A DNA stretch of 64,000 bases, taken from contig NZ_CP100448.1 of the NCBI RefSeq assembly GCF_024227715.1, positions 1,302,001-1,366,000 on the forward strand, read 5' to 3'. The DNA is from Halomarina litorea. GTDB lineage: Archaea; Halobacteriota; Halobacteria; Halobacteriales; Haloarculaceae. Of this stretch, positions 51,241 through 62,596 are shown piece after piece. Below the pieces are notes generated by a model. That model searched no databases and was not told the origin of the DNA. It saw only the letters and a list, made by a program, of their open reading frames with translations. The translations under genes and the position numbers were made by a program. Position 1 is the stretch's first letter. The number at the start of each line of letters is the position of its first letter.

Positions 51241-51381
51241 CCGTGTCGAGGGGGGTGCGCGTTCGACGGGGCCGCCTTCGACAGTAAAAATCAGACGGGT
51301 ACCGCGCGTGGAGCGTTCGTGGGAGGGGTCCCCGATAGCAGGTGCCGGACGGGCAGTTCCTGTTCGAGATGGCGACGACAG

Positions 51382-52362
51382 TCACTCCGGTCCCGAATCG
51401 GACCGAGTCGTATCCCTGATGTGGAGTCCGAGTGCGTAGAACATCGGGGCGAACAGCACAGCCGTCAGGCCACCGCCGACGGCCAGTCCTGTCCGCGAGA
51501 TGACCGCGTCAGGGCCGTCGCCGACCACGATTACACCACGCATCCCGAGGTGGCCGTACTCAGAGCACTCGTAGGTGCTCCAGCCTCGGCCGTCGAACTC
51601 GACGGCGAAGCGGTGGCCCGCGCCGGAAACGGCCTCGCTGCGGAACTCGAGGTCGGTATCGACAACGTCGTAGCGCTTGTCCCCAACCCACTCCCAGACG
51701 ACGGTCGTGCCGGGGTCGACACGGACTGCTGCCGGGGCGAACGCGAACTGGCCGCCGTTGCCCTCCGCACCGACCTCGACGGTCACGCGGTCCTGTCCCC
51801 GGGCGTCGACGACGCCGTCGTAGTTGTCCGTCCCTTCGAGCCATCCGTCGAACGTCTCTGTCGGTTCGGACTCCGGTGTCGGTTGCGTACCCGCGCCGAG
51901 GGAGACGGCGACGTCGCCGACGAGGAGTGCGCCCTTCATCCCCATCGCTTCGTGGGGCGCACAGACATACCGGAGTACGCCGGTCGACTCTGGTGTGTAC
52001 TCGAAGGTGGCACCCGCGGCGTTCTGGTACTCTGACTCGAACGAGCCGTCCTTCGCGACGACGTTGTGCGTGCCGCCGTCGCCCGTCCACTCCCAGACGA
52101 CGGTCGTGCCGGGGTCGACACGGACCGCCGCCGGAGCGAACGCGACCGCACCGCCGTTACCCTGCGCGCCCACCTCGACGACCACCTGGGACTCGCCGCG
52201 TTTGTCGACGACCTCGCTTACGCCGTCGGTGTTCGCGAACCACTCCGAGAGGTCCACGCCGCCCGACTGGGCCCCGACTGAGTCGGTGAGGACGCTGGCG
52301 CCGACCGCCGTGCCCGCCGTCGTGGCGAGGAACTGCCGTCGAGTGCTGGTGGTGACGGTCAT
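51382..52362 (-). CDS. Tandem halocyanin with one degenerate copper site
   Basis: A 326-residue exported blue-copper protein with a Tat signal (STRRQFLATT), two halocyanin domains and a C-terminal membrane helix (residues about 291-315). Domain 1 (about 35-150) has all four ligands: His99, Cys134, His137 and Met142. Domain 2 (about 170-282) keeps Cys266 and Met274, but the first His is Tyr231 and the second is Tyr269, so it should not bind copper normally; His271 is nearby. It follows the multicopper oxidase gene by three bases, so it probably shuttles electrons to it. Confidence 0.88.
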   Translation of the reverse strand: MTVTTSTRRQFLATTAGTAVGASVLTDSVGAQSGGVDLSEWFANTDGVSEVVDKRGESQVVVEVGAQGNGGAVAFAPAAVRVDPGTTVVWEWTGDGGTHNVVAKDGSFESEYQNAAGATFEYTPESTGVLRYVCAPHEAMGMKGALLVGDVAVSLGAGTQPTPESEPTETFDGWLEGTDNYDGVVDARGQDRVTVEVGAEGNGGQFAFAPAAVRVDPGTTVVWEWVGDKRYDVVDTDLEFRSEAVSGAGHRFAVEFDGRGWSTYECSEYGHLGMRGVIVVGDGPDAVISRTGLAVGGGLTAVLFAPMFYALGLHIRDTTRSDSGPE

Positions 52363-52365
52363 CGA

Positions 52366-53511
52366 TCAGGCCTCGTAGCCCGCGTAGTCCATCAACGTCC
52401 GGAAGATGTCCGTGTCCATCGCTTCCGTGTAGACGACGGCGCTGAGCATCCCGCCGGGGTACGACGAGCCGTTACGGACGTGGTCGACCTTGTGGCAGTG
52501 CATGAGGTAGATGCCGGGGTCGGCGTCGGCCTCGAACTCGACGGTGTAGCGTTCCGCGGGCGCGATGTTCAACACGTCCTGTTCGAACTGGAGGGCTTCG
52601 GGCATCGGGCTGCCGTCCTTCTCGACGACCCGGAAGCGGTGGTTGTGGACGTGCAGCGGGTGGCTCATGAACCCCGCGTTGACCCAGTGGACGCGGACGG
52701 TGTCACCCGATTCGACGATAATCGGCGAGCCCGTCTCGGGGTGGAGTGTCGCGGGCGCGGCCTTCCCGTTGAGCGTGAACGCGTCGGCACGACGATTCGT
52801 CAGGTCGTACTGGACGTTCTGGCCGCCGTGCTGGCGGGAGAGACGCGTATCCCACTCCTTCGCCGTCATGAAGTACTCCTTGTCGGCCTCCTCGTAGCCC
52901 TCGGGGTCGACCCGGAGGATGCCGTACATCCCCATGTCCATGTGCATCGGCGTCTGGTAGTGGCAGTGATACAGGTGCGTCCCGGCGACGTTCGCGGGAA
53001 TCGTGTAGGTGTGTGTCTCGCCGGGGTTGACGGTGATACCAGTCGTCGTCGGGACGCCGTCGTTCTCCCACGTCTTGCGCACGCCGTGGAAGTGCAGCGT
53101 GTGTGGGACCTGCATCTCGGTGTTGTCGAGGGTGATCTTCAGTTCGGCTCCCTCGGTACACCGGAGGATGGGCCCGGGCACGCTCGGCGTGCCGTCGTCG
53201 GCCTGGAACGCCCAGACGACGGGCAAGTTAACCGGCCCACCCATCGTCTCGCCGGGGTGGATAGCGTGACGCGCCATCACCGACTTGATCGTGACCTCGT
53301 GGCCGCGTTCGTCGAGGTCGACCACTTCCGGGCGGCCGGTCGGGGGGAGGTTCGACTGAACCCCGGTCGTACCGCCGAGATCGACGACGCTCGCCGTGGG
53401 CTCGGAGAGCGTCGTGCATCCTGCGGTCGCGAAGAGGCCGGCACTGCCGGTCGCGGCGAGGAACTGTCGACGGGAGATTCCGGTTCCAGGGGCGCCAATC
53501 GAGTTCGTCAT
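52366..53511 (-). CDS. Two-domain multicopper oxidase
   Basis: A 381-residue exported oxidase with a Tat signal and a lipobox-like ATAGC (residues 28-32). Copper motifs: PHTLHFHG (137-143) and YHCHYQTPMHMDMGM (181-195) in domain 1; SHPLHVHNH (283-291) and MHCHKVDH (337-344) with Met355 in domain 2. Each domain has a His, a Cys, a His and a Met that could form a type 1 site, plus HxH pairs for the inter-domain cluster. It is related to two-domain laccases and copper nitrite reductases; the substrate is undecided. ATG 53511 follows a TATA box at 53540. Confidence 0.85.
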   Translation of the reverse strand: MTNSIGAPGTGISRRQFLAATGSAGLFATAGCTTLSEPTASVVDLGGTTGVQSNLPPTGRPEVVDLDERGHEVTIKSVMARHAIHPGETMGGPVNLPVVWAFQADDGTPSVPGPILRCTEGAELKITLDNTEMQVPHTLHFHGVRKTWENDGVPTTTGITVNPGETHTYTIPANVAGTHLYHCHYQTPMHMDMGMYGILRVDPEGYEEADKEYFMTAKEWDTRLSRQHGGQNVQYDLTNRRADAFTLNGKAAPATLHPETGSPIIVESGDTVRVHWVNAGFMSHPLHVHNHRFRVVEKDGSPMPEALQFEQDVLNIAPAERYTVEFEADADPGIYLMHCHKVDHVRNGSSYPGGMLSAVVYTEAMDTDIFRTLMDYAGYEA

Positions 53512-53539
53512 TGTACAGTTGATCGTTCGAGGGTAGCTG

Positions 53540-53546
53540 ATATAAC
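53540..53546 (-). promoter_or_regulatory. TATA element for the oxidase-halocyanin operon
   Basis: On the minus strand GGTTATATCAGC ends about 28 bases before ATG 53511, with GC-rich sequence just upstream as expected for a BRE. This fits a nearly leaderless transcript covering both copper proteins. Confidence 0.5.
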
Positions 53547-53748
53547 CGGGGAAACCGATTCTCACTCCCTTGGAATCGGCACAATGCGAGGTCCGGGCAC
53601 GCTCCGGGCCCTCGTCGACACCAATCGGGTCGAGGTGTTCCGCTGTCTTCGTCACACGAACACCCGACAGAACCCTCGAAGACTCGCGGTGCGGAACGGA
53701 CTCCTGATTGGAGACGGACTGCGAACGAGTCTCGGGCCCGACAGGGAA

Positions 53749-54024
53749 CTACTCGACGTACAGCGAGTAGACGATGACGCCGAAGCCGGCTGTCGTGAGT
53801 GCGCTCTCGATGACGAGGACGACGTCGGTGTTCATGCCGAAGGCCTGATGGGCGGCGCCTGCGAGCAGTGCCCCGAAGGTGACGATAGCGAATCCGAGTG
53901 CGAGAGCGCCAAGCGCCTGTGCGTTCGTGCGTCGATAGGCCCGATAGGCGAAGAACGTGATGAGGCCACCGAGACCCAGCGTAATCGTCTTCAGCGCGAC
54001 GAGGACCGTTGTGACGTGCGTCAT
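53749..54024 (-). CDS. Small three-helix membrane protein
   Basis: A 91-residue integral membrane protein (MTHVTTVLVALKTITLGLGG onward) with three hydrophobic segments at about residues 5-27, 37-58 and 67-88. It resembles a haloarchaeal family commonly encoded next to winged-helix regulators. Its ATG overlaps the regulator's stop by four bases (ATGA), so the two are coupled and may form a membrane-sensor and repressor pair. Confidence 0.7.
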   Translation of the reverse strand: MTHVTTVLVALKTITLGLGGLITFFAYRAYRRTNAQALGALALGFAIVTFGALLAGAAHQAFGMNTDVVLVIESALTTAGFGVIVYSLYVE

Positions 54025-54419
54025 GTTTCCTTTCGAACCTCCGACCAGAGCGACGCGAGGCGCTCGTCGGCGCCCCGTGGCGGGCGCTCGACGGACACCT
54101 CGAACTCGCGATGCTCGTCGAGGGCGACGGCGACCCGCTCGAAATCCACCCGGTAGTGGCTCGTGTGATGACCGTCGCGACGAATTTCCGTCCGGGTCGT
54201 CAACAGCGACGCCTCCTCGAGGCGGTCGAGCTTCCTGTAGGTCGTCGATAGAGGGACGCCCGCACGCTCCGACAGGTCGCTCGCGGTCGCGGTTCCCTCG
54301 AGGTGTTTGACGAGATCTCGACACACCGGATCGTCGAGTGCGTCGAGGACGTCCTGGAGAGCCGGCGTGTCCGTTCGGGGCCACGCGTTCGCCATATCGA
54401 GGAGTTCGCAGCGTGGCAT
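54021..54419 (-). CDS. ArsR-like winged-helix regulator
   Basis: A 132-residue DNA-binding protein. The winged helix is seen in VLDALDDPVCRDLVKHLEG, TASDLSERAGVPLSTTYRKL and DRLEEASLL with a wing TTRTEIRRDGHHTSHYRVD. No metal-binding cysteine motif of true ArsR sensors is visible. The start at ATG 54419 is tentative; in-frame starts exist at 54458 and 54395. Coupled to the membrane protein downstream. It could regulate the adjacent copper or DoxX genes. Confidence 0.8.
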   Translation of the reverse strand: MPRCELLDMANAWPRTDTPALQDVLDALDDPVCRDLVKHLEGTATASDLSERAGVPLSTTYRKLDRLEEASLLTTRTEIRRDGHHTSHYRVDFERVAVALDEHREFEVSVERPPRGADERLASLWSEVRKET

Positions 54420-54517
54420 ATCAGTGTAGGGGTTCCGTTCGGAGTTGAGAGGGTGCATTCACCGGACAGCGAGAACAGAAACGCGACGGGGAGAAGCCGG
54501 TGAGATCAGTCGGCCAC

Positions 54518-55075
54518 TCAGCCGAGGACGTAGCTGAGGGCGGGGTACTTCTCGACGAGGGGTTGCCCGCCGAGTTCGTATCGTTCGACGATGGTGTCGA
54601 GGCCGAGGATGCGGCCCGCACCGAAGGCGGCGACGGCGAGGAACACCAGCATGTACATGAAGTCCGAGTTGATGAAGCCGTGGGCCATGTCCCAGTTGCC
54701 GAAGTAGAACAACAGCATCATACTGGCGCCGAAGAACGCCGCGAGGCGGGTCATGAGGCCGACCATGATGCCGAGGCCGATGGCGACTTCACCGTAGGGG
54801 ACGGCGACGTTGACGATGTCGACGAACCACGGTGTCGAGCCCATCCACGCGAACAGCCCGGCGAGGGGGTTGCCGTTGGTCGCGGCGACGTTGTTCAGGT
54901 ACCCACCAGCGGCGAAGCCGTTGAGGACCTTGTCCACGCCGGAGTAGAGGAACGCGAACCCGATGGTCAGGCGGAGCGCGAGGACGAACCAGGCGCTGAG
55001 GCTGTGCGCGCGGCCGGTGACGGTGATGCCACCGAGGCGGCTTTCGAACGTGTTGGCAGTCGGGTTGGGGGTCAT
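54518..55075 (-). CDS. DoxX-family membrane protein
   Basis: A 185-residue protein with four membrane segments, starting WFVLALRLTIGFAFLYSGVDK. The DoxX pattern continues with PYGEVAIGLGIMVGLMTRLAAFFGA and MLLFYFGNWD. DoxX/DoxD proteins act in thiosulfate:quinone oxidation or in sulfur-related membrane redox reactions in some archaea and bacteria. The neighbouring rhodanese and copper oxidase make a redox role attractive but unproven. ATG 55075 lies about 40 bases after a TATA box. Confidence 0.85.
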   Translation of the reverse strand: MTPNPTANTFESRLGGITVTGRAHSLSAWFVLALRLTIGFAFLYSGVDKVLNGFAAGGYLNNVAATNGNPLAGLFAWMGSTPWFVDIVNVAVPYGEVAIGLGIMVGLMTRLAAFFGASMMLLFYFGNWDMAHGFINSDFMYMLVFLAVAAFGAGRILGLDTIVERYELGGQPLVEKYPALSYVLG

Positions 55076-55113
55076 TGTCTTCACCTTACGGTTGAACGAA
55101 CGACTGACAGGAG

Positions 55114-55122
55114 TATATAAAT
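55114..55122 (-). promoter_or_regulatory. TATA element for DoxX
   Basis: Minus-strand ATTTATATA at 39-47 bases before ATG 55075; the match to the archaeal TATA consensus is strong and the predicted leader is about 15 bases. Confidence 0.5.
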
Positions 55123-55370
55123 GGAGGCTGGTTCTCACCGCCCGAGAACCGAGAGACGCGACCGACCCACCTCCAGAATCACGGCAAGGCGGACTACGCG
55201 TCAGGACGGACTATTGGGCGGTCGCTGTGTGTGTCGGTTCGTGGTCCGACCACGGACGAAGTGTCGATGATCGTACAACCGGGCGGTGGACGCCCTCGCC
55301 GCCGAGGCGGTGTTCTGACGTCGACTACAGCGAGGAGGTCGCGTCCTCGACCGGCCTGTCGGGCCCCCTG

Positions 55371-55772
55371 CTACGCGTCGAACCCGCCCGCGACGCTGGC
55401 GACGTTGTGCAGGCCCATCTCCTGTGCGCACTGTACCGCGAGCGCAGAGCGTCCGCTGACCGCACAGCGGAAGACGAGTCCGGACCCGTCCCCGAGTTCC
55501 TCGACGAAGGAAGGGCTCTCGGGGTCGGGGTGGAACTCCAGCATCCCGCGCGAGGCGTGGACCACCGGACGCGATATCTGTCCGTTCTTCCGGAGCTCCG
55601 GAGCGTCGAGCACGTCGACGAACACCGCGTCGCCCTTCTCGTACCGCTCGACGGCCTCCTCGATGGGATACGTGTGAATCGCCTCGTTCGCCTCCGCGAG
55701 TATCTGCTCGTAGCCCTTCGTAATCGCGCCGCTGTCGGCGGGTTCGATGGACTGTGACACGACAATCGCCAC
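55371..55772 (-). CDS. Rhodanese-like sulfurtransferase
   Basis: A 133-residue single rhodanese domain. The active-site loop is FRCAVSGRSAL with Cys103, and the family strands AVFVDVLDAPEL and HASRGMLEFHPD are present. It could carry persulfide sulfur. It begins with GTG (MAIVVSQSIEPADSG); an ATG two bases upstream is out of frame. It lies upstream of doxX in the same direction with a 295-base interval, too far to be sure of cotranscription. Confidence 0.82.
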   Translation of the reverse strand: MAIVVSQSIEPADSGAITKGYEQILAEANEAIHTYPIEEAVERYEKGDAVFVDVLDAPELRKNGQISRPVVHASRGMLEFHPDPESPSFVEELGDGSGLVFRCAVSGRSALAVQCAQEMGLHNVASVAGGFDA

Positions 55773-56021
55773 ATATCAGAGTGACAGAACATAACGGTTG
55801 TTGACGACCGGCGGGACAGTCTGCGTCGCCGGGGAGTGGAACGAAGTGGAGCGCAGTCCAGTGTCCGTCTGAGCGATCGCGGGGAATCGGCGGCTTTTCG
55901 CGGGGGCTGCGCCTCCGGCGGCGAACCCAACGGAGATATTTTCGGCCTCGATTGGAGTGAGCCAGCTGTTAGACACGTGTCGCGTGTGTATCAACGAGTT
56001 CAGGTCCGGTTATCCCGAAAA

Positions 56022-56030
56022 CATATATTA
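56022..56030 (+). promoter_or_regulatory. TATA element
   Basis: CATATATTA begins 30 bases before ATG 56052 in an AT-rich patch, giving a leaderless or near-leaderless start for the lipoprotein gene. This AT-rich change marks the left edge of the accessory island. Confidence 0.5.
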
Positions 56031-56051
56031 ATCAGAATTTGAATTATTGTT

Positions 56052-56603
56052 ATGCCTCGCCCTTGGTCCCGGCGTTCGGTCCTCTGCTCGATAGGTACTG
56101 GAATCACGCTCTTGAGTGGCTGTACCTCCGTCGGGTTTGAGCAATCCACAGACCAAACGGCCACGCCAGTATCGGCAGAGGAAATTGAGAGCTTCGAGTG
56201 TCCTCCATCCGGGGATGGGGACGCTACTGTGTGTTCGCAGACGGTTGAGACCGATACAGCCTCGGTGTACCTCCTCCCATCGCCGACAGTCGGTGACGCG
56301 CCCGACTCGCTCGAACTGACCCTCACAAACGAGTCAGAAGCCGACCTCACATTCAACCCGTACTCGTGGTCGGTGTGGAAAAAGAGTGCATCCGGCTGGT
56401 CCGAGATTGAACAGGAGAGTTCTGGTGGCGGGAAGCTGACGGTCGCACCCGGTGACTCGGAGACGTGGACCGCCAAAACGGTCGTCGGATACATCAACGA
56501 GTCGGCCACGCTCAACTCAGGAGCGTACTCAGCGGCAATCAACGTCCCAAACCCGGACGGAGACGACTGGATAACGTGCCTCGCCGTCTTCGGGATTCGA
56601 TGA
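56052..56603 (+). CDS. Lipoprotein with beta-sandwich domain
   Basis: A 183-residue exported protein: signal RRSVLCSIGTGITLL and lipobox SGC with Cys24. The mature part is beta-rich with the order LELTLTNESEADLTFNP, SWSVWKKSASGWSE, LTVAPGDSETWTA and GAYSAAINV, like an immunoglobulin-type domain seen in many haloarchaeal envelope lipoproteins. Codon use is less G/C-ended than in neighbours to the left, in keeping with transfer into the island. Function unknown. Confidence 0.7.
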   Translation: MPRPWSRRSVLCSIGTGITLLSGCTSVGFEQSTDQTATPVSAEEIESFECPPSGDGDATVCSQTVETDTASVYLLPSPTVGDAPDSLELTLTNESEADLTFNPYSWSVWKKSASGWSEIEQESSGGGKLTVAPGDSETWTAKTVVGYINESATLNSGAYSAAINVPNPDGDDWITCLAVFGIR

Positions 56604-56650
56604 CGGCGGGGACGCAACGGTAGTCCATCACCAATCGATAGACGTACGCT

Positions 56651-56697
56651 CTCAGTCTATCGCTCGGCGCGTGCCACGAGTCTTACAGGTATCAGAA
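56651..56697 (-). repeat. Island 3' repeat, copy A
   Basis: About 45 bases read on the minus strand as CTGATACC then ACTCGTGGCACGCGCCGAGC. It begins at the stop codon of the small membrane gene ending at 56692. It is similar to copies at 57070-57113 and 57437-57482. Confidence 0.6.
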
Positions 56698-56979
56698 TAA
56701 TCGATTGCACTCAGAAGCGTGACGGTTCGAGTTCGTCCAGTATCGCGGTTGCAACATCGGAGGCGACCGGTAGAGAGCGGTCACACCAGTAGCCACTAAC
56801 GCCTTCCCTGCCTGTCGCATCGGACGCTCTCCGAAGACCGTGAGAACGACACCAATACCGAAAAATAGTAGTGCGACGATTCCTGTTCCGACAGAGAGGC
56901 TTGACCCTGCAGTCCAGATACCCAGTCCGAGAAGCAACCCGGTGAGAGCGGGCTGCTGCCGAAACGACTCGATATTCAT
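56692..56979 (-). CDS. Small membrane protein with frameshifted C-terminus
   Basis: From ATG 56979 the protein has two membrane segments (residues 11-30 and 33-52) and the loop FGERPMRQAGKALVATGVTA. After that the frame gives an atypical tail (SPPMLQPRYWTNS). The neighbouring frame instead reads VASDVATAILDELEPSRF and a stop at about 56711, which looks like the genuine haloarchaeal C-terminus. One missing base near 56772 would join them. A TATA box 22-29 bases upstream supports expression. Decay or sequencing error are both possible. Confidence 0.55.
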   Translation of the reverse strand: MNIESFRQQPALTGLLLGLGIWTAGSSLSVGTGIVALLFFGIGVVLTVFGERPMRQAGKALVATGVTALYRSPPMLQPRYWTNSNRHASECNRLF

Positions 56980-57000
56980 CAGTGAATAATAGATTGCAGA

Positions 57001-57008
57001 TATAATAA
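57001..57008 (-). promoter_or_regulatory. TATA element
   Basis: Minus-strand TTATTATA (57001-57008), 22-29 bases from ATG 56979, giving a leaderless start for the small membrane protein. Confidence 0.55.
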
Positions 57009-57069
57009 GTCAATCGAAGAACAGTAGTGGACAGAATACCTCGGCTACAGTCAGCTCACGGTGCAAAAC

Positions 57070-57113
57070 AGACCCTCTGTATCGTTCGACCCGTGCCGCG
57101 AGTGTATCAGCTG
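57070..57113 (-). repeat. Island 3' repeat, copy B
   Basis: Minus strand CTGATACACTCGCGGCACGG then GTCGAACGATACAGAGG. The TGA inside CTGATAC is the stop codon of the gene ending at 57107, so copies A and B stand in the same place relative to their genes. Confidence 0.6.
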
Positions 57114-57367
57114 GTGAATTCGAATGGAGCCCTCGACCACTTCGAATAGTACCAGAGCGCAATCCAGATACTGCCGATTCCGAGGAAGGCTCCGACCACA
57201 GCCCATCCCAGCCATGGGGGAACGGGTTCTGGACCGACCACTGAACTGCTCTCACCCACGAACACGCCCGGACTCCACGGAGGTGGATGGCCACTGACGA
57301 CCAGTGCGAGACTCCCGACGACGGCGATGAGGACATTGAGCAGCCCCCGACGAAGACGGTCGTCCAT
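57107..57367 (-). CDS. Small membrane protein
   Basis: An 86-residue protein (MDDRLRRGLLNVLIAVVGSL) with two membrane segments (about 8-25 and 51-72) separated by a Pro/Ser-rich loop (GHPPPWSPGVF). The C-terminus is basic-aromatic (YYSKWSRAPFEFTS). A TATA box is 158 bases upstream, so there is a long leader that includes one copy of the island repeat and a short ORF starting at 57479. Function unknown. Confidence 0.5.
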   Translation of the reverse strand: MDDRLRRGLLNVLIAVVGSLALVVSGHPPPWSPGVFVGESSSVVGPEPVPPWLGWAVVGAFLGIGSIWIALWYYSKWSRAPFEFTS

Positions 57368-57436
57368 ACGGTGAATCGGAAAGTATCTGACAAACCGATT
57401 GTGGGTGACTGTCAAGAAGGGCTGAGACACCCACGC

Positions 57437-57482
57437 TCTGCGTGTAGCGTTCGACGCGTACCGCAAGTGCAACAGCCATTGA
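57437..57482 (-). repeat. Island 3' repeat, copy C
   Basis: Minus strand CTGTTGCACTTGCGGTACGC then GTCGAACGCTACACGCAGAG. No gene ends here; the copy lies in the leader of the gene starting at 57367 and may mark the end of a lost gene unit. A short frame (MAVALAVRVERYTQSV) passes through it. Confidence 0.55.
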
Positions 57483-57524
57483 GCAGAAAACTACTTATTC
57501 TCTGAATGACCTTATCCCACACTT

Positions 57525-57530
57525 ATATAA
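57525..57530 (-). promoter_or_regulatory. TATA element
   Basis: Minus-strand TTATATAAG, a perfect TATA-like word in a locally AT-rich region between the convergent-free ends of the deacetylase gene and the small membrane genes. Transcription would begin near 57500. Confidence 0.45.
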
Positions 57531-57553
57531 TACTTCGCGTGGCTCTCAGCCTC

Positions 57554-58858
57554 TCAGGGAGTGCCCGATAGAACCTCCGACCAATACCGCGTCGGGGTCG
57601 TCACATTGAGCTCTAGTTCCTCGATGAGGTCAAGCAACTCGACGAATTTGGGCGTCGAGATACGGTCGTCTTTCGGATTGCCGACCGTGTGGACCGTGAG
57701 GATAACCAACTGATTGTATGTGGCTGCGCGTCGAATCTGTGCTTTCGCTTGTTCGGACCTATCGACATTGACTCGCTCCATCGTTAGTGGATCACGGGGC
57801 GGGGTCCCACTCAAGAGACCTTCACCGACATAGTTGGTCGCGTGGTAGTCGGCGATAATCGACAGCGTCTGCTTGTTGGCGATGCCGAACGGTGTTACAA
57901 TGTGGTTTGCGCCCTCGGTGAAGCCATTGGCGACAAGCCATGACTTCGTCCGCCGGATGAGTCGTCGCTGCTCGTCGGGCGAATACGCTGGGAGTGGCTT
58001 CTCGACTTGCGGGTGAGCAACGGCGTCCCAGCCAGCTGTGGTCCACTCATCGAGTTGTTCACGAGTAATTTGACTCGGCGCATTCAACAGCCAGGGGATG
58101 ACCGCAATCGCCCCAGGCATGTTGCGCTTACCCATCTCCTCGTAGGCGTTCTCGATAGAGGCACGGCCGTCGTCGAAGATAATCATCGCACTCCCCGTGC
58201 GGTAATTCGGCGTACTCCAGATGTCGTCGAGCACCACTGGTTCAACCTGTGGCGTCTCGTTGGTCGCGTCGGTAGAGATCTCGAGTTGCACCCGCTCTAT
58301 CTGCTGGAGATTCGGGTCACCAACTTCACCAGTTGGTCCCCACTCCATCGCTCGCCAGAACTCGGTGAGGTGTCCGTCGGTGTACTGTGAGATGATGACC
58401 TGATTGTCTCTGTCCGGCGCTAGTAAGCGGACGCGGACGACTGGTGTGTTCTGCGTGGTGTGGCGGAACCACATCGAGAGGTTCTGCTGAGTGATGTCGA
58501 GTGGCTCGTCGAACGCTCGTTCGATAAGAACTGCCGGGTCGTCCTCCGTCGTGAGGCGAATGGCTGGTCCTTGCCCATGTGTCTCATCGGTCTCGGGAGT
58601 GAGTGCACCTGCCAGCACCTTCCACTGGTCAGGATTTGCGAAGTCGTCGACGAGCGTTCCGCTCTTCGCGACGAGCTCGCGACTCTGCTGTTGTAAGACC
58701 GGATTGAGCTGGTAATCTGCCTCGGAGTTATCTATCGCGTCATAGGCGGCTTGGTAGATGTCAGGGCCGACCGCTTCGGCCCCCCACCACGACCCAAGGC
58801 TCGCGGTGATAGTTCCGCCCATCGTGAGCAACGCCTTTCGGCGCGGTATATCAGTCAC
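57554..58858 (-). CDS. Exported polysaccharide deacetylase (NodB-fold) with N-terminal beta domain
   Basis: A 434-residue protein with a Tat-like start (PRRKALLTMGG). Residues about 65-215 look like a carbohydrate-binding beta-sandwich (DDFANPDQWKVLAGALTPE). Residues about 225-430 are a NodB-type barrel with the catalytic/metal Asp pair in MIIFDDGRAS, one His in DAVAHPQ and a later TPFG strand. The second metal His of the usual HxxxH is not evident. It should remove N-acetyl groups from an extracellular polymer. Its start lies within the end of the glycosyltransferase gene (GTG 58858, or GTG 58867), so they are coupled, as in pga/ica-type operons. Confidence 0.78.
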   Translation of the reverse strand: MTDIPRRKALLTMGGTITASLGSWWGAEAVGPDIYQAAYDAIDNSEADYQLNPVLQQQSRELVAKSGTLVDDFANPDQWKVLAGALTPETDETHGQGPAIRLTTEDDPAVLIERAFDEPLDITQQNLSMWFRHTTQNTPVVRVRLLAPDRDNQVIISQYTDGHLTEFWRAMEWGPTGEVGDPNLQQIERVQLEISTDATNETPQVEPVVLDDIWSTPNYRTGSAMIIFDDGRASIENAYEEMGKRNMPGAIAVIPWLLNAPSQITREQLDEWTTAGWDAVAHPQVEKPLPAYSPDEQRRLIRRTKSWLVANGFTEGANHIVTPFGIANKQTLSIIADYHATNYVGEGLLSGTPPRDPLTMERVNVDRSEQAKAQIRRAATYNQLVILTVHTVGNPKDDRISTPKFVELLDLIEELELNVTTPTRYWSEVLSGTP

Positions 58859-60347
58859 CGCGACCACCTGTCTGCTCGGTCTGTGCGGTGGGCTGGCGTT
58901 GGCGCTGTCGGTCGGCCGTTGTCCACGACAGGTCGCTCAGTGTGGCCACCTCGAACATCGCTTTGAGGGTGACGATGTCGATGAAGTACTTGAAGAACGT
59001 CGCATATATTGGCACGAAGCCGATGAGGAGCAAGGTTTCATCGTCGAGAAGTAGCACGAACAGGATAGCGAACGTCTGCAGCAACAGGAAGGAGACGATG
59101 AGTGCGACTAAAAACACGTACGCTTCGATGAGATAGAGGTGGACGAGGACGCCCAGTGCGACGAGACTCGGGAATGGCAACAACAGCCGTGAGAACATCA
59201 TGTACGGGTAGACGATGCTCGTGAAGTTGTCTATCTGCGGGGCGAACAGCACATCGCGGTGTTTGAGAAGCGTCTGGACGGTTCCGCGCCGCCAGCGAAG
59301 CCGTTGCTTGTAGAGGCTCCGAAGTGTATCCGGTGCTTCCGTGTAGACGGTCGCATTGGACGCTCGGACCTGCCAGCCGTGGCGGAGAATCTGTACGGTG
59401 ATTTCGAAGTCTTCCGTGAGCGTATCACCGGCGTATCCACCAGCCTCTTCGAGTGCCGTGCGGCGGAAGCCACCGAGACACCCGGGGACAACATTGACTG
59501 CGCCCCAGATATCGAACGCTCGACGGAACGAATTGATACCGAAGACGTACTCCAGCGACTGGAGTTTTTCGAGGAATGACTCGCGAGTCAGCAATCGGAC
59601 GGTGCCGGCGACAGCACCAACGTCAGGGCTCTCGACGAGCTTTGCGACCATTTTCCCGATGGCATCCTCTGCAACCAGTGAGTCCGCATCGACAGTCAGG
59701 ATGAGTTCTGCTGTTGTGTGTTCCAGCCCGTAATTCAGTGCCGAGAACTTCCCACCGTTCTCTTTCTGAAGGATGCGCATGCGGTCGCTGTCGATGGCCA
59801 GTGCTTCCTCGTACGTTCCATCAGTACTCCCATCGTCGATGACAACGATTTCGACCTCGCCAGGATACGTTGTCTTGGCGAGACTCTCGACACAGCGACC
59901 GATATACTGCTCTTCGTTGTACGCGGGGACGAGCACCGCCACGGGCGGTGCTGGGTCGGGGAGTGCACTCGAATCGTCGTGTGATTCGGCGGCATGGAGC
60001 CACGCCAGTGGTAGGACGAACCACACGTCGAAGAAGACGAACGTGAGTGCGTACGCAAGAACGTAGCTCACGGGGTTTCGAATCCCACTGACGGCATAGA
60101 GGTACATGAATAGCAGAATGCCTGCGATGAACAACACCCCCCAGACAGGGATTGGTGTCGTCGCCCTAGGCCAGCGCTCTTGAATCGTCGCTGTACCCAC
60201 TTGATAGATGAATCCCAGGACTGCGACGGCGGCACAGACGATGACGACTTGCCAATCAAGAACATACAGCAAGAGCGTCAGCGAGAAAATAGTTGCAATT
60301 GATACAGCAATAAGCTGTCTTCGGTCAGTAGCGTTTTCTCTTCTCAT
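58851..60347 (-). CDS. Processive family-2 glycosyltransferase (polysaccharide synthase)
   Basis: A 498-residue membrane synthase that polymerises a beta-linked polysaccharide from UDP-sugar. About four N-terminal and four or five C-terminal membrane helices flank a cytoplasmic GT-A domain. Catalytic motifs are DDGSTDGT (171-178), DADS (220-223), TEDFE (311-315, catalytic base) and QRLRWRRG (348-355). This set is that of NodC, IcaA/PgaC, hyaluronan and cellulose synthases. With the deacetylase, a partly de-N-acetylated GlcNAc polymer is the simplest idea. ATG 60347 is preferred to a TTG upstream. Confidence 0.87.
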   Translation of the reverse strand: MRRENATDRRQLIAVSIATIFSLTLLLYVLDWQVVIVCAAVAVLGFIYQVGTATIQERWPRATTPIPVWGVLFIAGILLFMYLYAVSGIRNPVSYVLAYALTFVFFDVWFVLPLAWLHAAESHDDSSALPDPAPPVAVLVPAYNEEQYIGRCVESLAKTTYPGEVEIVVIDDGSTDGTYEEALAIDSDRMRILQKENGGKFSALNYGLEHTTAELILTVDADSLVAEDAIGKMVAKLVESPDVGAVAGTVRLLTRESFLEKLQSLEYVFGINSFRRAFDIWGAVNVVPGCLGGFRRTALEEAGGYAGDTLTEDFEITVQILRHGWQVRASNATVYTEAPDTLRSLYKQRLRWRRGTVQTLLKHRDVLFAPQIDNFTSIVYPYMMFSRLLLPFPSLVALGVLVHLYLIEAYVFLVALIVSFLLLQTFAILFVLLLDDETLLLIGFVPIYATFFKYFIDIVTLKAMFEVATLSDLSWTTADRQRQRQPTAQTEQTGGRGD

Positions 60348-60624
60348 TTGGTTGACAGCCAATCCGAACCCCGCCAAATATGTCAATATATCTTAATATA
60401 CCGTGATAGAGCGGGTGACTATTTTCGTCGAATCTTCGCGGGCTCATGGGGTTTCCACTAAGGGATTATCTGGAATTGACAGTTGAATGAGCAACCGAAC
60501 CGATATATACGCGCCAGCAACCACTTCGTATATATGTACAACTGATAAAATCTAATTTCTGAATATCGAGAATCCGTGTTGCCAGTTCCGGCAGAAAGCG
60601 TTCGCTGCCGCACAGTCTACCGAC

Positions 60625-61701
60625 CTATGGTGTTATCATGCCTCTGAAAACGGCCTCGGTGTGCTCTGTCGGCTGCCCACCAACACGAGCAGTCGTAAGT
60701 TCCACTTTGTAGGCTGGGTAGACGCGGGTTCCCCGTTCGTTGATGACGGTTGGGGCTGTCGGTGTGTCGAAGACGGCCCAGTCGGTTTCCTTGTCGATGT
60801 CGAAGTAACACGCGAACTGGACGTTGAGGTCGGCGAAGAGGTCGAACGCGCTGTGGAGCCAGCCAGTCTTTCGTGCCGGGTCGAACCGACCAGCAATCTG
60901 TGAAGACGAACCGAATTCGGGGATGCACAGCGGTACGTCAGTGAGGGCACGGCAGCGCTCGACCATCGGTCGGAACACATCAGTGGGTGGCCGCCAGCCG
61001 TGGGCACCGACGTCGCCCCAGTTGTACCCGTCGATACCAACCCAGTCGATAACATCAGCACCGGGGAAGTACGCCTCTGCAGGTGTCGGTCCGAAATCGC
61101 GCGCTATCGGGTTCCAGACCCATTGAACATCGGCTGCTGTGAGCGGACTGTTGTTCATCACGTATGAATAGACGTGCCGCCAGGCAGCGACGAATTCACT
61201 GCTCGTGCCAGTCGTTCCATCGACAGAGTACGGTGCCCAGTTCCCGTTCATCTCAGGGAACGGGCGAAAGTAGAATCGGCGGCTACCATTACCCTCCGCT
61301 ACCCACCGAGCGAGGCGTTCAGCCCATCTCGACAGCAGTGCGTCGTACTCGCCTGCAGCAATCGCTGCGAGAAACGACGCTTCGGTCGATTGGGGTGGAG
61401 ATGTCGGGTGGGGCTGCCAGGTTACCATCGGGATTCGCCCCTCTGCGGCGGTCGTACTCAGTGTCTGGAAGAACTCTTCACGGACGGCCGTCGTCGTCGG
61501 CGGAGACGCATAGTGAACACTAACAAAATATGGCACGCCCGTCCACGCTTCGGCCGCTCGGTAGTGCGCAAGCGTTGGTGCTGTCGCCCCGACGCGAAGC
61601 GACGGCTGCGTGGACTGAGGTGCCAAAGCTGCACTGGCTCCAAAGAGCGCGCTGCTCCCAGCCCCTGCGGCTACTGCCAGGTAGGTACGGCGTGTCGGCA
61701 T
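60625..61701 (-). CDS. Exported GH26-like glycoside hydrolase
   Basis: A 358-residue secreted (beta/alpha)8 enzyme with a twin-arginine-like start (MPTRRTYLAVAAGAG). The acid/base Glu150 is in YFRPFPEMNGNW and the nucleophile Glu262 in PLCIPEFGSSS, the arrangement of family 26 (beta-mannanase-like) and related clan GH-A enzymes. GIDGYNWGD is the conserved barrel strand between them. It lies upstream of the synthase in the same direction, separated by 277 AT-rich bases. It probably trims or releases the polymer made by the synthase, or degrades another. Confidence 0.8.
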   Translation of the reverse strand: MPTRRTYLAVAAGAGSSALFGASAALAPQSTQPSLRVGATAPTLAHYRAAEAWTGVPYFVSVHYASPPTTTAVREEFFQTLSTTAAEGRIPMVTWQPHPTSPPQSTEASFLAAIAAGEYDALLSRWAERLARWVAEGNGSRRFYFRPFPEMNGNWAPYSVDGTTGTSSEFVAAWRHVYSYVMNNSPLTAADVQWVWNPIARDFGPTPAEAYFPGADVIDWVGIDGYNWGDVGAHGWRPPTDVFRPMVERCRALTDVPLCIPEFGSSSQIAGRFDPARKTGWLHSAFDLFADLNVQFACYFDIDKETDWAVFDTPTAPTVINERGTRVYPAYKVELTTARVGGQPTEHTEAVFRGMITP

Positions 61702-61924
61702 TAGGTGGCGAGAGATAAGACCGTACTTCGTATAGAAATAGTGGTGTATTTCAAATGATATATTCGCTGAGACAAGCAGATAAGCGAGTGTACCACCCCG
61801 TTCGACTCGTTCGCTGCTATCCACTCTATGGGAAGGGGGCGTAGCGTTGTCAGTTCAGTCGAGAAGGTGCGCGTGGTCGGTAATGCGAGAGCGGTGAGAG
61901 CACCGTCGATGTTGAACGCTTCGA

Positions 61925-62279
61925 GCAACAGACCATGCCGTTACGTATGTTCAAACCCGCCTCCAAGAACGGTCACTTCTCGAAGCAGGCGTCAGTGTCT
62001 GGAGTGGTGGCAGTACCCTCGCCGACGTGACCGAGTCCTCGGAAAACCCACTGTCCGAATCGATGTTCAAACGCGCCCGGACAATCGGGGCCACTCATCA
62101 GCCACACTGCAACGTACGACTGTGCTGGGACACTCATTGCAGTACCAGAGGTCGAGTTCGATGCGCTTGTCGAAGCTACACCACGGAAGATGGAGGTAAC
62201 GATGAAGTTCCCCGAGCGGAGCTATACTGCGGTTCTCCCTGCTTTCTGTAGTAAGCTATGGCGTCAGTACGAGTAACCT
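61925..62279 (+). pseudogene. Decayed coding sequence, family unknown
   Basis: The 914-base gap 61702-62615 lacks an intact gene but holds two protein-like fragments in different plus-strand frames. One reads ATDHAVTYVQTRLQERSLLE and continues LADVTESSENPLSES to about 62100. The other reads TLIAVPEVEFDALVEATPRK and MEVTMKFPERSYTAVLPAF before a TAA stop at 62277-62279. Both are acidic and haloarchaeal in style. They look like two parts of one gene broken by at least one frameshift, with its start lost. I cannot name the family. Confidence 0.5.
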
Positions 62280-62306
62280 GTTCCGAGACCGGACCTCCCC
62301 AGTAGC

Positions 62307-62331
62307 GTTAGACAGACGCTCTCTGTCTAAC
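62307..62331. repeat. Perfect 9-bp hairpin
   Basis: GTTAGACAG (62307-62315) and CTGTCTAAC (62323-62331) are exact complements around a seven-base loop. It lies 30 bases after the decayed gene's stop and could be its terminator or the outer end of a lost mobile element. Confidence 0.6.
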
Positions 62332-62480
62332 AGCGAGTCGTCTGTATGTCGGGGACGCACTTCGGGTGCGCCTCGGATGTCGTACGGTCCCGATGGACGA
62401 ACCCATCCTGTGTCCGCGCGAGTGGAACGAACGCGGTTCTCCGATTCCGAGCGCGAGCGAGGAACCGGCCCTTTTTATCG

Positions 62481-62596
62481 CCGAAAGTCACTGACTTTCG
62501 GCTGTTAACCAGAACGCTGTGCGTTCTGGTGATAGCGTAGATTTTTGCGAGGAGGGGTGCCCGGAGCGAGCGCCGAAGGCGCGAGCGAGGACACCC
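62481..62596. repeat. Cluster of three hairpins
   Basis: Within 116 bases: CCGAAAGTCA/TGACTTTCGG (62481-62501), CCAGAACGC-TGT-GCGTTCTGG (62509-62529), and a longer GC-rich stem from GGGTG (62555) to CACCC (62596) with GCGCC-GAA-GGCGC at its tip. A TTTTTAT run (62472-62478) precedes them. The cluster separates the accessory island from the conserved genes to the right. Confidence 0.65.

Follow-up and report, generated by a model that had tools for sequence, protein, structure and literature searches.

Gene content and organization of the locus

The window examined here is a stretch of 64,000 nucleotides from Halomarina litorea (contig NZ_CP100448.1, assembly GCF_024227715.1), and all positions are counted from its start. 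Its minus strand carries, in the order of transcription, genes for an exported glycosidase resembling glycoside hydrolase family 26 (GH26), a membrane-bound family 2 glycosyltransferase (GT2) of the processive synthase type and an exported protein with the NodB fold (Table 1). The presence of a synthase, a deacetylase-fold protein and a glycosidase, put forward in a preliminary description of this DNA, was confirmed: the three open reading frames (ORFs) were found and each product matches a Pfam family above its cut-off. The three genes probably constitute a synthase-dependent exopolysaccharide module, whose products polymerise, deacetylate and cut one polymer.

The stop of the synthase gene overlaps the start of the NodB-type gene by 8 nucleotides, and an overlap of equal length is found in three other genomes (G190, G242 and G450; loci L108, L109 and L111). 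This implies that translation of the two genes is coupled. The start of the NodB-type gene is likely the GTG at 58858, nine bases inside the longest ORF, because homologues begin with MT(D/E) at an 8-nucleotide overlap and GTGACTGA stands at this position in the window. Since 238 nucleotides of AT-rich sequence part the GH26 gene from the synthase gene, the former may have its own transcript; the same stretch could hold a separate promoter for the synthase-NodB pair.

Table 1. Positions of the module genes and associated features in the window.
Feature	Position	Strand	Basis or remark
GH26-like glycoside hydrolase, exported	60625..61701	-	upstream GTG would lengthen the ORF to 61824 (399 amino acids)
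Membrane GT2 synthase, processive type	58851..60386	-	annotated start TTG; ATG 13 codons downstream
NodB-type protein, exported	57554..58858	-	longest ORF begins at 58867
Synthase stop/NodB-type start overlap, 8 nucleotides, GTGACTGA	58851..58858	-	sequence
AT-rich spacer separating the GH26 gene from the synthase gene, 238 nucleotides	60387..60624	-	sequence
Low-GC accessory segment with the module	55200..62590	.	GC profile, GC at third codon positions, blastn against congeners; left edge approximate (composition only)

The GT2 synthase

The synthase matches PF00535 (3.7e-32) and PF13641 (1.5e-31) and contains the motifs DDG (184-186), DAD (233-235), TED (324-326) and QRLRW (361-365), which are invariant in an alignment of 8 haloarchaeal sequences except for the Leu of QRLRW. 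The hydropathy profile has about four N-terminal hydrophobic segments, followed by the GT2 domain and a C-terminal hydrophobic cluster. The D, DxD, TED and QxxRW motifs of processive membrane GT2 enzymes are thus all present, with membrane segments on either side, and the original assignment to this type stands for every motif.

The best NCBIfam model for the protein was TIGR03937 (PgaC_IcaA) with 203.4 bits, which is below the equivalog cut-off of 422.3 bits; the NodC and CelA models scored 117 and 86 bits. Cellulose synthase came first among the matches in the PDB, and solved hyaluronan synthases matched weakly. In the GT2 tree, PgaC of E. coli and IcaA of M. sciuri formed a group to which none of the main haloarchaeal synthases belonged; the window synthase did not group with cellulose synthase in this tree, which held no hyaluronan synthase and gave no resolution of its deep position. 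The picture is therefore not that of a hyaluronan- or cellulose-type synthase lacking deacetylase partners. The likeness to the core of the poly-N-acetylglucosamine (PNAG) systems pga and ica, proposed earlier, was retained in part: the GT2 gene is linked to a deacetylase-fold gene, but the synthase scores below the PgaC/IcaA cut-off. No PgaD/IcaD-like small membrane ORF was found between or beside the three genes. Scanning of genome contigs with the synthase yielded three distant bacterial matches, and scanning of viral contigs yielded distant GT2 proteins at most, with no clear partner alongside the matches that were checked.

The NodB-type protein

The NodB-type protein matches PF01522 (1.1e-5, above the cut-off) and has an RR signal motif of the twin-arginine type at its N-terminus, which recurs in the homologues (read by eye from the sequence). 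Its metal-site motifs are FDDG, HPQVE and VHTVGN. In carbohydrate esterase family 4 (CE4) enzymes, the metal ligands are an Asp and the two His residues of motif 2, H(S/T)xxH (PMC5855634). The Asp-Asp of motif 1 (FDD; base and metal ligand) is kept in all synthase-linked copies, as is the general-acid His of motif 5 (HTVG); motif 2 of the window protein lacks one of the two His residues, and Haloferax relatives have a Ser at the position of the second. Its designation as a NodB-type deacetylase therefore holds for the NodB fold, the Asp pair of motif 1 and the His of motif 5, but one of the three CE4 metal ligands is gone. The site may be either an altered metal site or a relic that serves binding only. 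A His four residues ahead of the Pro of motif 3 (NHIVTP) is a candidate compensating residue.

Residues 58-397 align with the turret head protein of HFTV1 (PDB 8qpg; phmmer, E 3.8e-15), which consists of an N-terminal galactose-binding-like domain and a C-terminal zinc-binding part (PMC12494034). The resemblance is near full-length and includes the N-terminal part, which is similar to the galactose-binding-like domain; unlike the NodB-type protein, the turret head protein belongs to the virion and has its zinc site (HGYNH) intact. A scan of viral contigs with the NodB-type alignments found no relative. A BLAST alignment with NodB in which the motif-2 His of the window protein took the place of the second His was rejected, as the family alignments, which are free of gaps, and the alignment with 8qpg give the first His.

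The haloarchaeal NodB-type relatives (L023-L051 and L163-L167) form a large family, of which a single genome may hold as many as nine copies. Loss of CE4 ligands varies within it: HTxxH may be intact, one or both His residues may be gone, or the Asp of motif 1 may be gone. Lineages without the second His often carry a His four residues before the Pro of motif 3.

The GH26-like glycosidase

The exported GH26-like glycosidase reported upstream of the synthase was borne out by a match to PF02156 (2e-8; 34.4 bits against a gathering score of 20.2) and by the N-terminus MPTRRTYLAV..., a twin-arginine-type signal of which the RR motif recurs in homologues (read from the sequence). The catalytic Glu pair, residues 191 and 303 of the 399-amino-acid ORF from 61824, is invariant in 8 homologues, including that of Deinococcus. 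The nearest solved relatives are entries of the C. thermocellum lichenase (endoglucanase H; E 4e-19). All 8 aligned GH26 proteins have a Pro before the acid/base Glu (PEMNGxW), where the lichenase has a His, so the specificity of the group cannot be read from the family name. GH26 enzymes act primarily on beta-1,4-mannan (PMC13390465). The GH26 scan of viral contigs gave distant GH26 proteins at most.

Distribution and linkage among haloarchaea

Synthase homologues (E <1e-50) were present in 49 and GH26 relatives (E <1e-10) in 35 of the 391 haloarchaeal genomes of the class that were sampled. Sixty stretches, mostly of about 17 kb, were read; 49 were centred on the synthase and the rest on GH26 or NodB-type matches. 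Partners were counted by a six-frame profile search with four protein groups, and the linkage counts refer to the 48 synthase loci of the main family, the window included. At least one partner, a deacetylase-fold protein and/or GH26, was found at 37 of these loci, which differs from the dispersed and unlinked arrangement that would have spoken against the module. The neighbour was a DUF2334 protein (PF10096, with a match to PF01522 as well) at 26 loci, a GH26 protein at 18 and a NodB-type protein at 4; a deacetylase-fold neighbour of either kind was present at 30, and the synthase was combined with both a deacetylase fold and GH26 at 11. A fifth GT-NodB pair is present in G495, which brings the pair to four genomes besides the window.

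The exact order GH26-GT2-NodB was found in the window genome only; the widespread form has DUF2334 in place of the NodB-type protein. Of the three-part linkage expected to be conserved in archaea, the association of the synthase with a deacetylase fold and/or GH26 recurs, but the precise gene order does not. Orientation and spacing vary across the loci, also among several of the GT2-GH26 linkages, and on the tree the DUF2334 state changes at least 4 and the GH26 state at least 6 times. No partner lay within ~1.5 kb of more distant relatives (31-35% identity) from other parts of the same phylum. The window genome has no DUF2334 gene, so that the NodB-type protein is without such a back-up. Profile comparison of the NodB-type and DUF2334 alignments was not significant, and the common ground that we claim for them is therefore limited to the Pfam polysaccharide deacetylase domain predicted in both.

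Many DUF2334 partners (L122, L124, L134, L125) have N-terminal CxxC pairs, zinc-ribbon-like, ahead of the membrane segment, with a TackOD1 match in one; the pairs suggest a cytoplasmic sensing or docking part. At L117 (7242-10233), the 3' end of a partnerless synthase gene overlaps the gene of a PAS histidine kinase.

Signs of shared inheritance of the synthase and the NodB-type protein

The window synthase clusters with three other NodB-linked synthases in the tree of this protein, with a support of 99 in the approximate likelihood-ratio test (SH-aLRT). Among 34 haloarchaeal relatives, the five NodB-linked proteins are united in a single group (SH-aLRT 100). Both trees were obtained by short searches, and they agree on the branching: the window is outermost, L109 follows and the remaining copies come last. 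The match between the gene trees is suggestive of coherent inheritance of the pair. In the simplest reading, one lineage would have swapped the DUF2334 protein for a NodB-type partner, after which the pair moved as a unit.

The accessory segment

The GC content at third codon positions (GC3) is 0.65-0.69 in the three module genes and 0.86-0.93 in the flanking genes. Synteny with the genus, assessed by blastn against four congeneric genomes, resumes at ~62.59-62.62 kb, which sets the right edge of the segment, and none of the four aligns across the module. The segment is accessory, because ~1.7 kb in one congener stands in for the 14 kb of the window between 48.3 and 62.6 kb. Horizontal acquisition, originally suggested by the lower GC, is thus supported by composition and synteny alike. 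No tRNA was found in the window. It was not possible to define an empty insertion site between DoxX and TANGO2, as the two genes are not adjacent in the congeners. In the region 51372-55138, the products, as named by eye, are a cupredoxin-like protein with two domains, a protein resembling multicopper oxidases and a membrane protein resembling DoxX. One congener (G055:C14) has this block in the same order, away from the genes flanking the module in the window.

Comparison with known systems

The module resembles Pga and Ica in that the gene of a processive-type GT2 adjoins that of an exported CE4-fold protein (PgaC-PgaB, IcaA-IcaB), and PgaB, by annotation, also carries a glycoside hydrolase, so that synthesis, deacetylation and cutting are combined, as proposed for the module. 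It differs from Pga and Ica in that the synthase does not reach the PgaC_IcaA cut-off and lies apart from the PgaC/IcaA group of the tree, a PgaD/IcaD-like ORF is missing, CE4 motif 2 is altered and, the host being an archaeon, there is no outer-membrane porin; the hydrolase is a separate GH26 protein rather than the C-terminal domain of PgaB. In Streptomyces, the CE4-GT2 protein MatB is required for PNAG production, and MatAB likewise joins a GT2 to an extracellular CE4 domain and makes an adhesive polymer in cells that have no outer membrane (PMC5972031). The two parts are fused in MatB and encoded by separate, overlapping genes in the module, where relatives of MatA and IcaC were not seen; GH26 is not part of Mat.

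The bacterial relatives closest to the haloarchaeal synthase include CE4-GT2 polypeptides of 1100-1135 amino acids (L175, L176, L177). Those of Prevotella and Sphingomonas have an N-terminal GH18 domain, which was not detected in a Sulfitobacter protein of the same size; Kocuria has a CE4-GT2 fusion. The GH18-CE4-GT2 fusions of Bacteroidota and Alphaproteobacteria thus unite a hydrolase, a deacetylase fold and a synthase, but they do so in a single polypeptide, with GH18 in place of GH26 and with a strong PF01522 domain. On a plasmid of Deinococcus taeanensis (L168, 6666-9696), the genes of a hypothetical protein (no Pfam family match), a GT2 and a GH26 protein overlap end to end, and the GT2-GH26 linkage thus crosses the domain boundary. 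Also close to the module are the haloarchaeal DUF2334-GT2(-GH26) loci, for instance on plasmids of Natrinema thermotolerans and Halorubrum lacusprofundi; these have the same synthase family and often GH26, and the place of the exported NodB-type protein is taken by a DUF2334 protein that is anchored in the membrane and keeps its HGYxH site intact.

Proposed function and alternatives

We propose that the membrane GT2 polymerises a nucleotide-sugar, probably to a beta-linked hexose or N-acetylhexosamine chain, which would be threaded through the membrane domain of the same enzyme. The NodB-fold protein, co-translated and exported, would bind the emerging chain via its N-terminal sugar-binding-like domain and take off acetyl groups with a metal site altered to Asp-His-Asp/Glu. 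The GH26-like enzyme, likewise exported, would then cut the chain, thereby setting its length or releasing it, and the product might serve in a biofilm or capsule. Where haloarchaea have the synthase together with a partner, the deacetylase position would mostly fall to a DUF2334 protein anchored in the membrane. Overall, the proposed mode of action is that of known synthase-dependent systems, and the partners are new.

Several observations weigh against joint action of the three proteins as polymerase, deacetylase and hydrolase. In 5 of 5 synthase-linked copies, Glu or Asp stands in for the second metal-binding His of motif 2 (HPQ[VL][DE]). An AlphaFold prediction of the NodB-type protein alone had a mean predicted local distance difference test (pLDDT) score of 35, and no structure model was obtained. 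Eleven of the 48 synthase loci are without any partner, the four other NodB-linked loci have no adjoining GH26 in the stretch read, and in the window itself a gap of 238 nucleotides separates the GH26 gene from the synthase gene.

The first of these points bears on the possibility that the NodB-fold protein is no deacetylase but catalytically dead, and binds carbohydrate as a partner of the synthase, acting as chaperone or anchor of the chain. Besides the His lost in all synthase-linked copies, several lineages of the wider haloarchaeal family have lost more of the site, CE4-fold proteins without the motif-2 His residues have been reported inactive (PMC5855634), and the N-terminal part aligns with the sugar-binding-like domain of the HFTV1 turret head protein (PMC12494034). 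However, the Asp pair of motif 1, the first His of motif 2 and the His of motif 5 are retained, the replacement by Glu or Asp throughout the synthase-linked group looks like altered ligation and not decay, and the commoner DUF2334 partner has an intact HGYxH motif. We consider a dead protein possible but doubtful.

It is rather unlikely that the same module makes a neutral beta-glucan or mannan, with the NodB-fold protein stripping O-acetyl groups or just binding the chain. Such a system would resemble those for cellulose or mixed-linkage glucan, with GH26 in the place of BcsZ, and it would agree with the preference of GH26 enzymes for beta-1,4-mannan (PMC13390465), with a lichenase as best solved relative, with cellulose synthase heading the PDB matches and with the acetylxylan esterases that CE4 also takes in (PMC5855634). 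The order of the NCBIfam scores (PgaC/IcaA above NodC above CelA), the fusion of near bacterial synthase relatives to CE4 and GH18 domains, the absence of an adjoining BcsB-like gene and the Pro for His substitution in the GH26 group argue against it. Because of the deacetylase-fold partners and the fusions, a hexosamine polymer appears somewhat more likely than a neutral one. A PNAG-like polymer would be one option among several, because the synthase reaches 203 of the 422 bits required, a PgaD/IcaD-like ORF is lacking and GH26 usually cuts mannan or glucan.

That the genes are mere chance neighbours in a segment rich in surface genes is very improbable: the exact order is confined to the window, GH26 may be transcribed separately and some relatives consist of the synthase alone, but GT2 is linked to GH26 at 18 of 48 loci, several with another orientation and spacing, and to a deacetylase fold at 30 of 48, where a rough estimate from ~1-5 GH26 copies per 4-Mb genome predicts GH26 proximity by chance at <1 locus.

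Returning to the proposed module, its broadest form would be a widespread haloarchaeal exopolysaccharide system with two interchangeable deacetylase-fold proteins, one with a working Asp-His-Asp/Glu site, and a GH26 enzyme that trims a hexosamine-type polymer. We regard this combination as unlikely; to our knowledge, hexosamine-type polymers are not among the known specificities of GH26.

Searches of the open-access literature on haloarchaeal systems of deacetylase and synthase, on DUF2334 and on GH26 in the synthesis of exopolysaccharides turned up no account of the module (subscription papers were outside this search). In very few cases have exopolysaccharide genes of archaea been linked to a polymer, and those that we found reported from haloarchaea (Haloarcula, Haloferax) are other glycosyltransferase clusters. 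The synthase occurs in about one in eight of the sampled haloarchaeal genomes, sometimes on plasmids, and the compact module offers a genetic handle on the making and editing of a surface polymer in cells without an outer membrane. If active, the altered site of the NodB-type protein would widen the known chemistry of the CE4 family.

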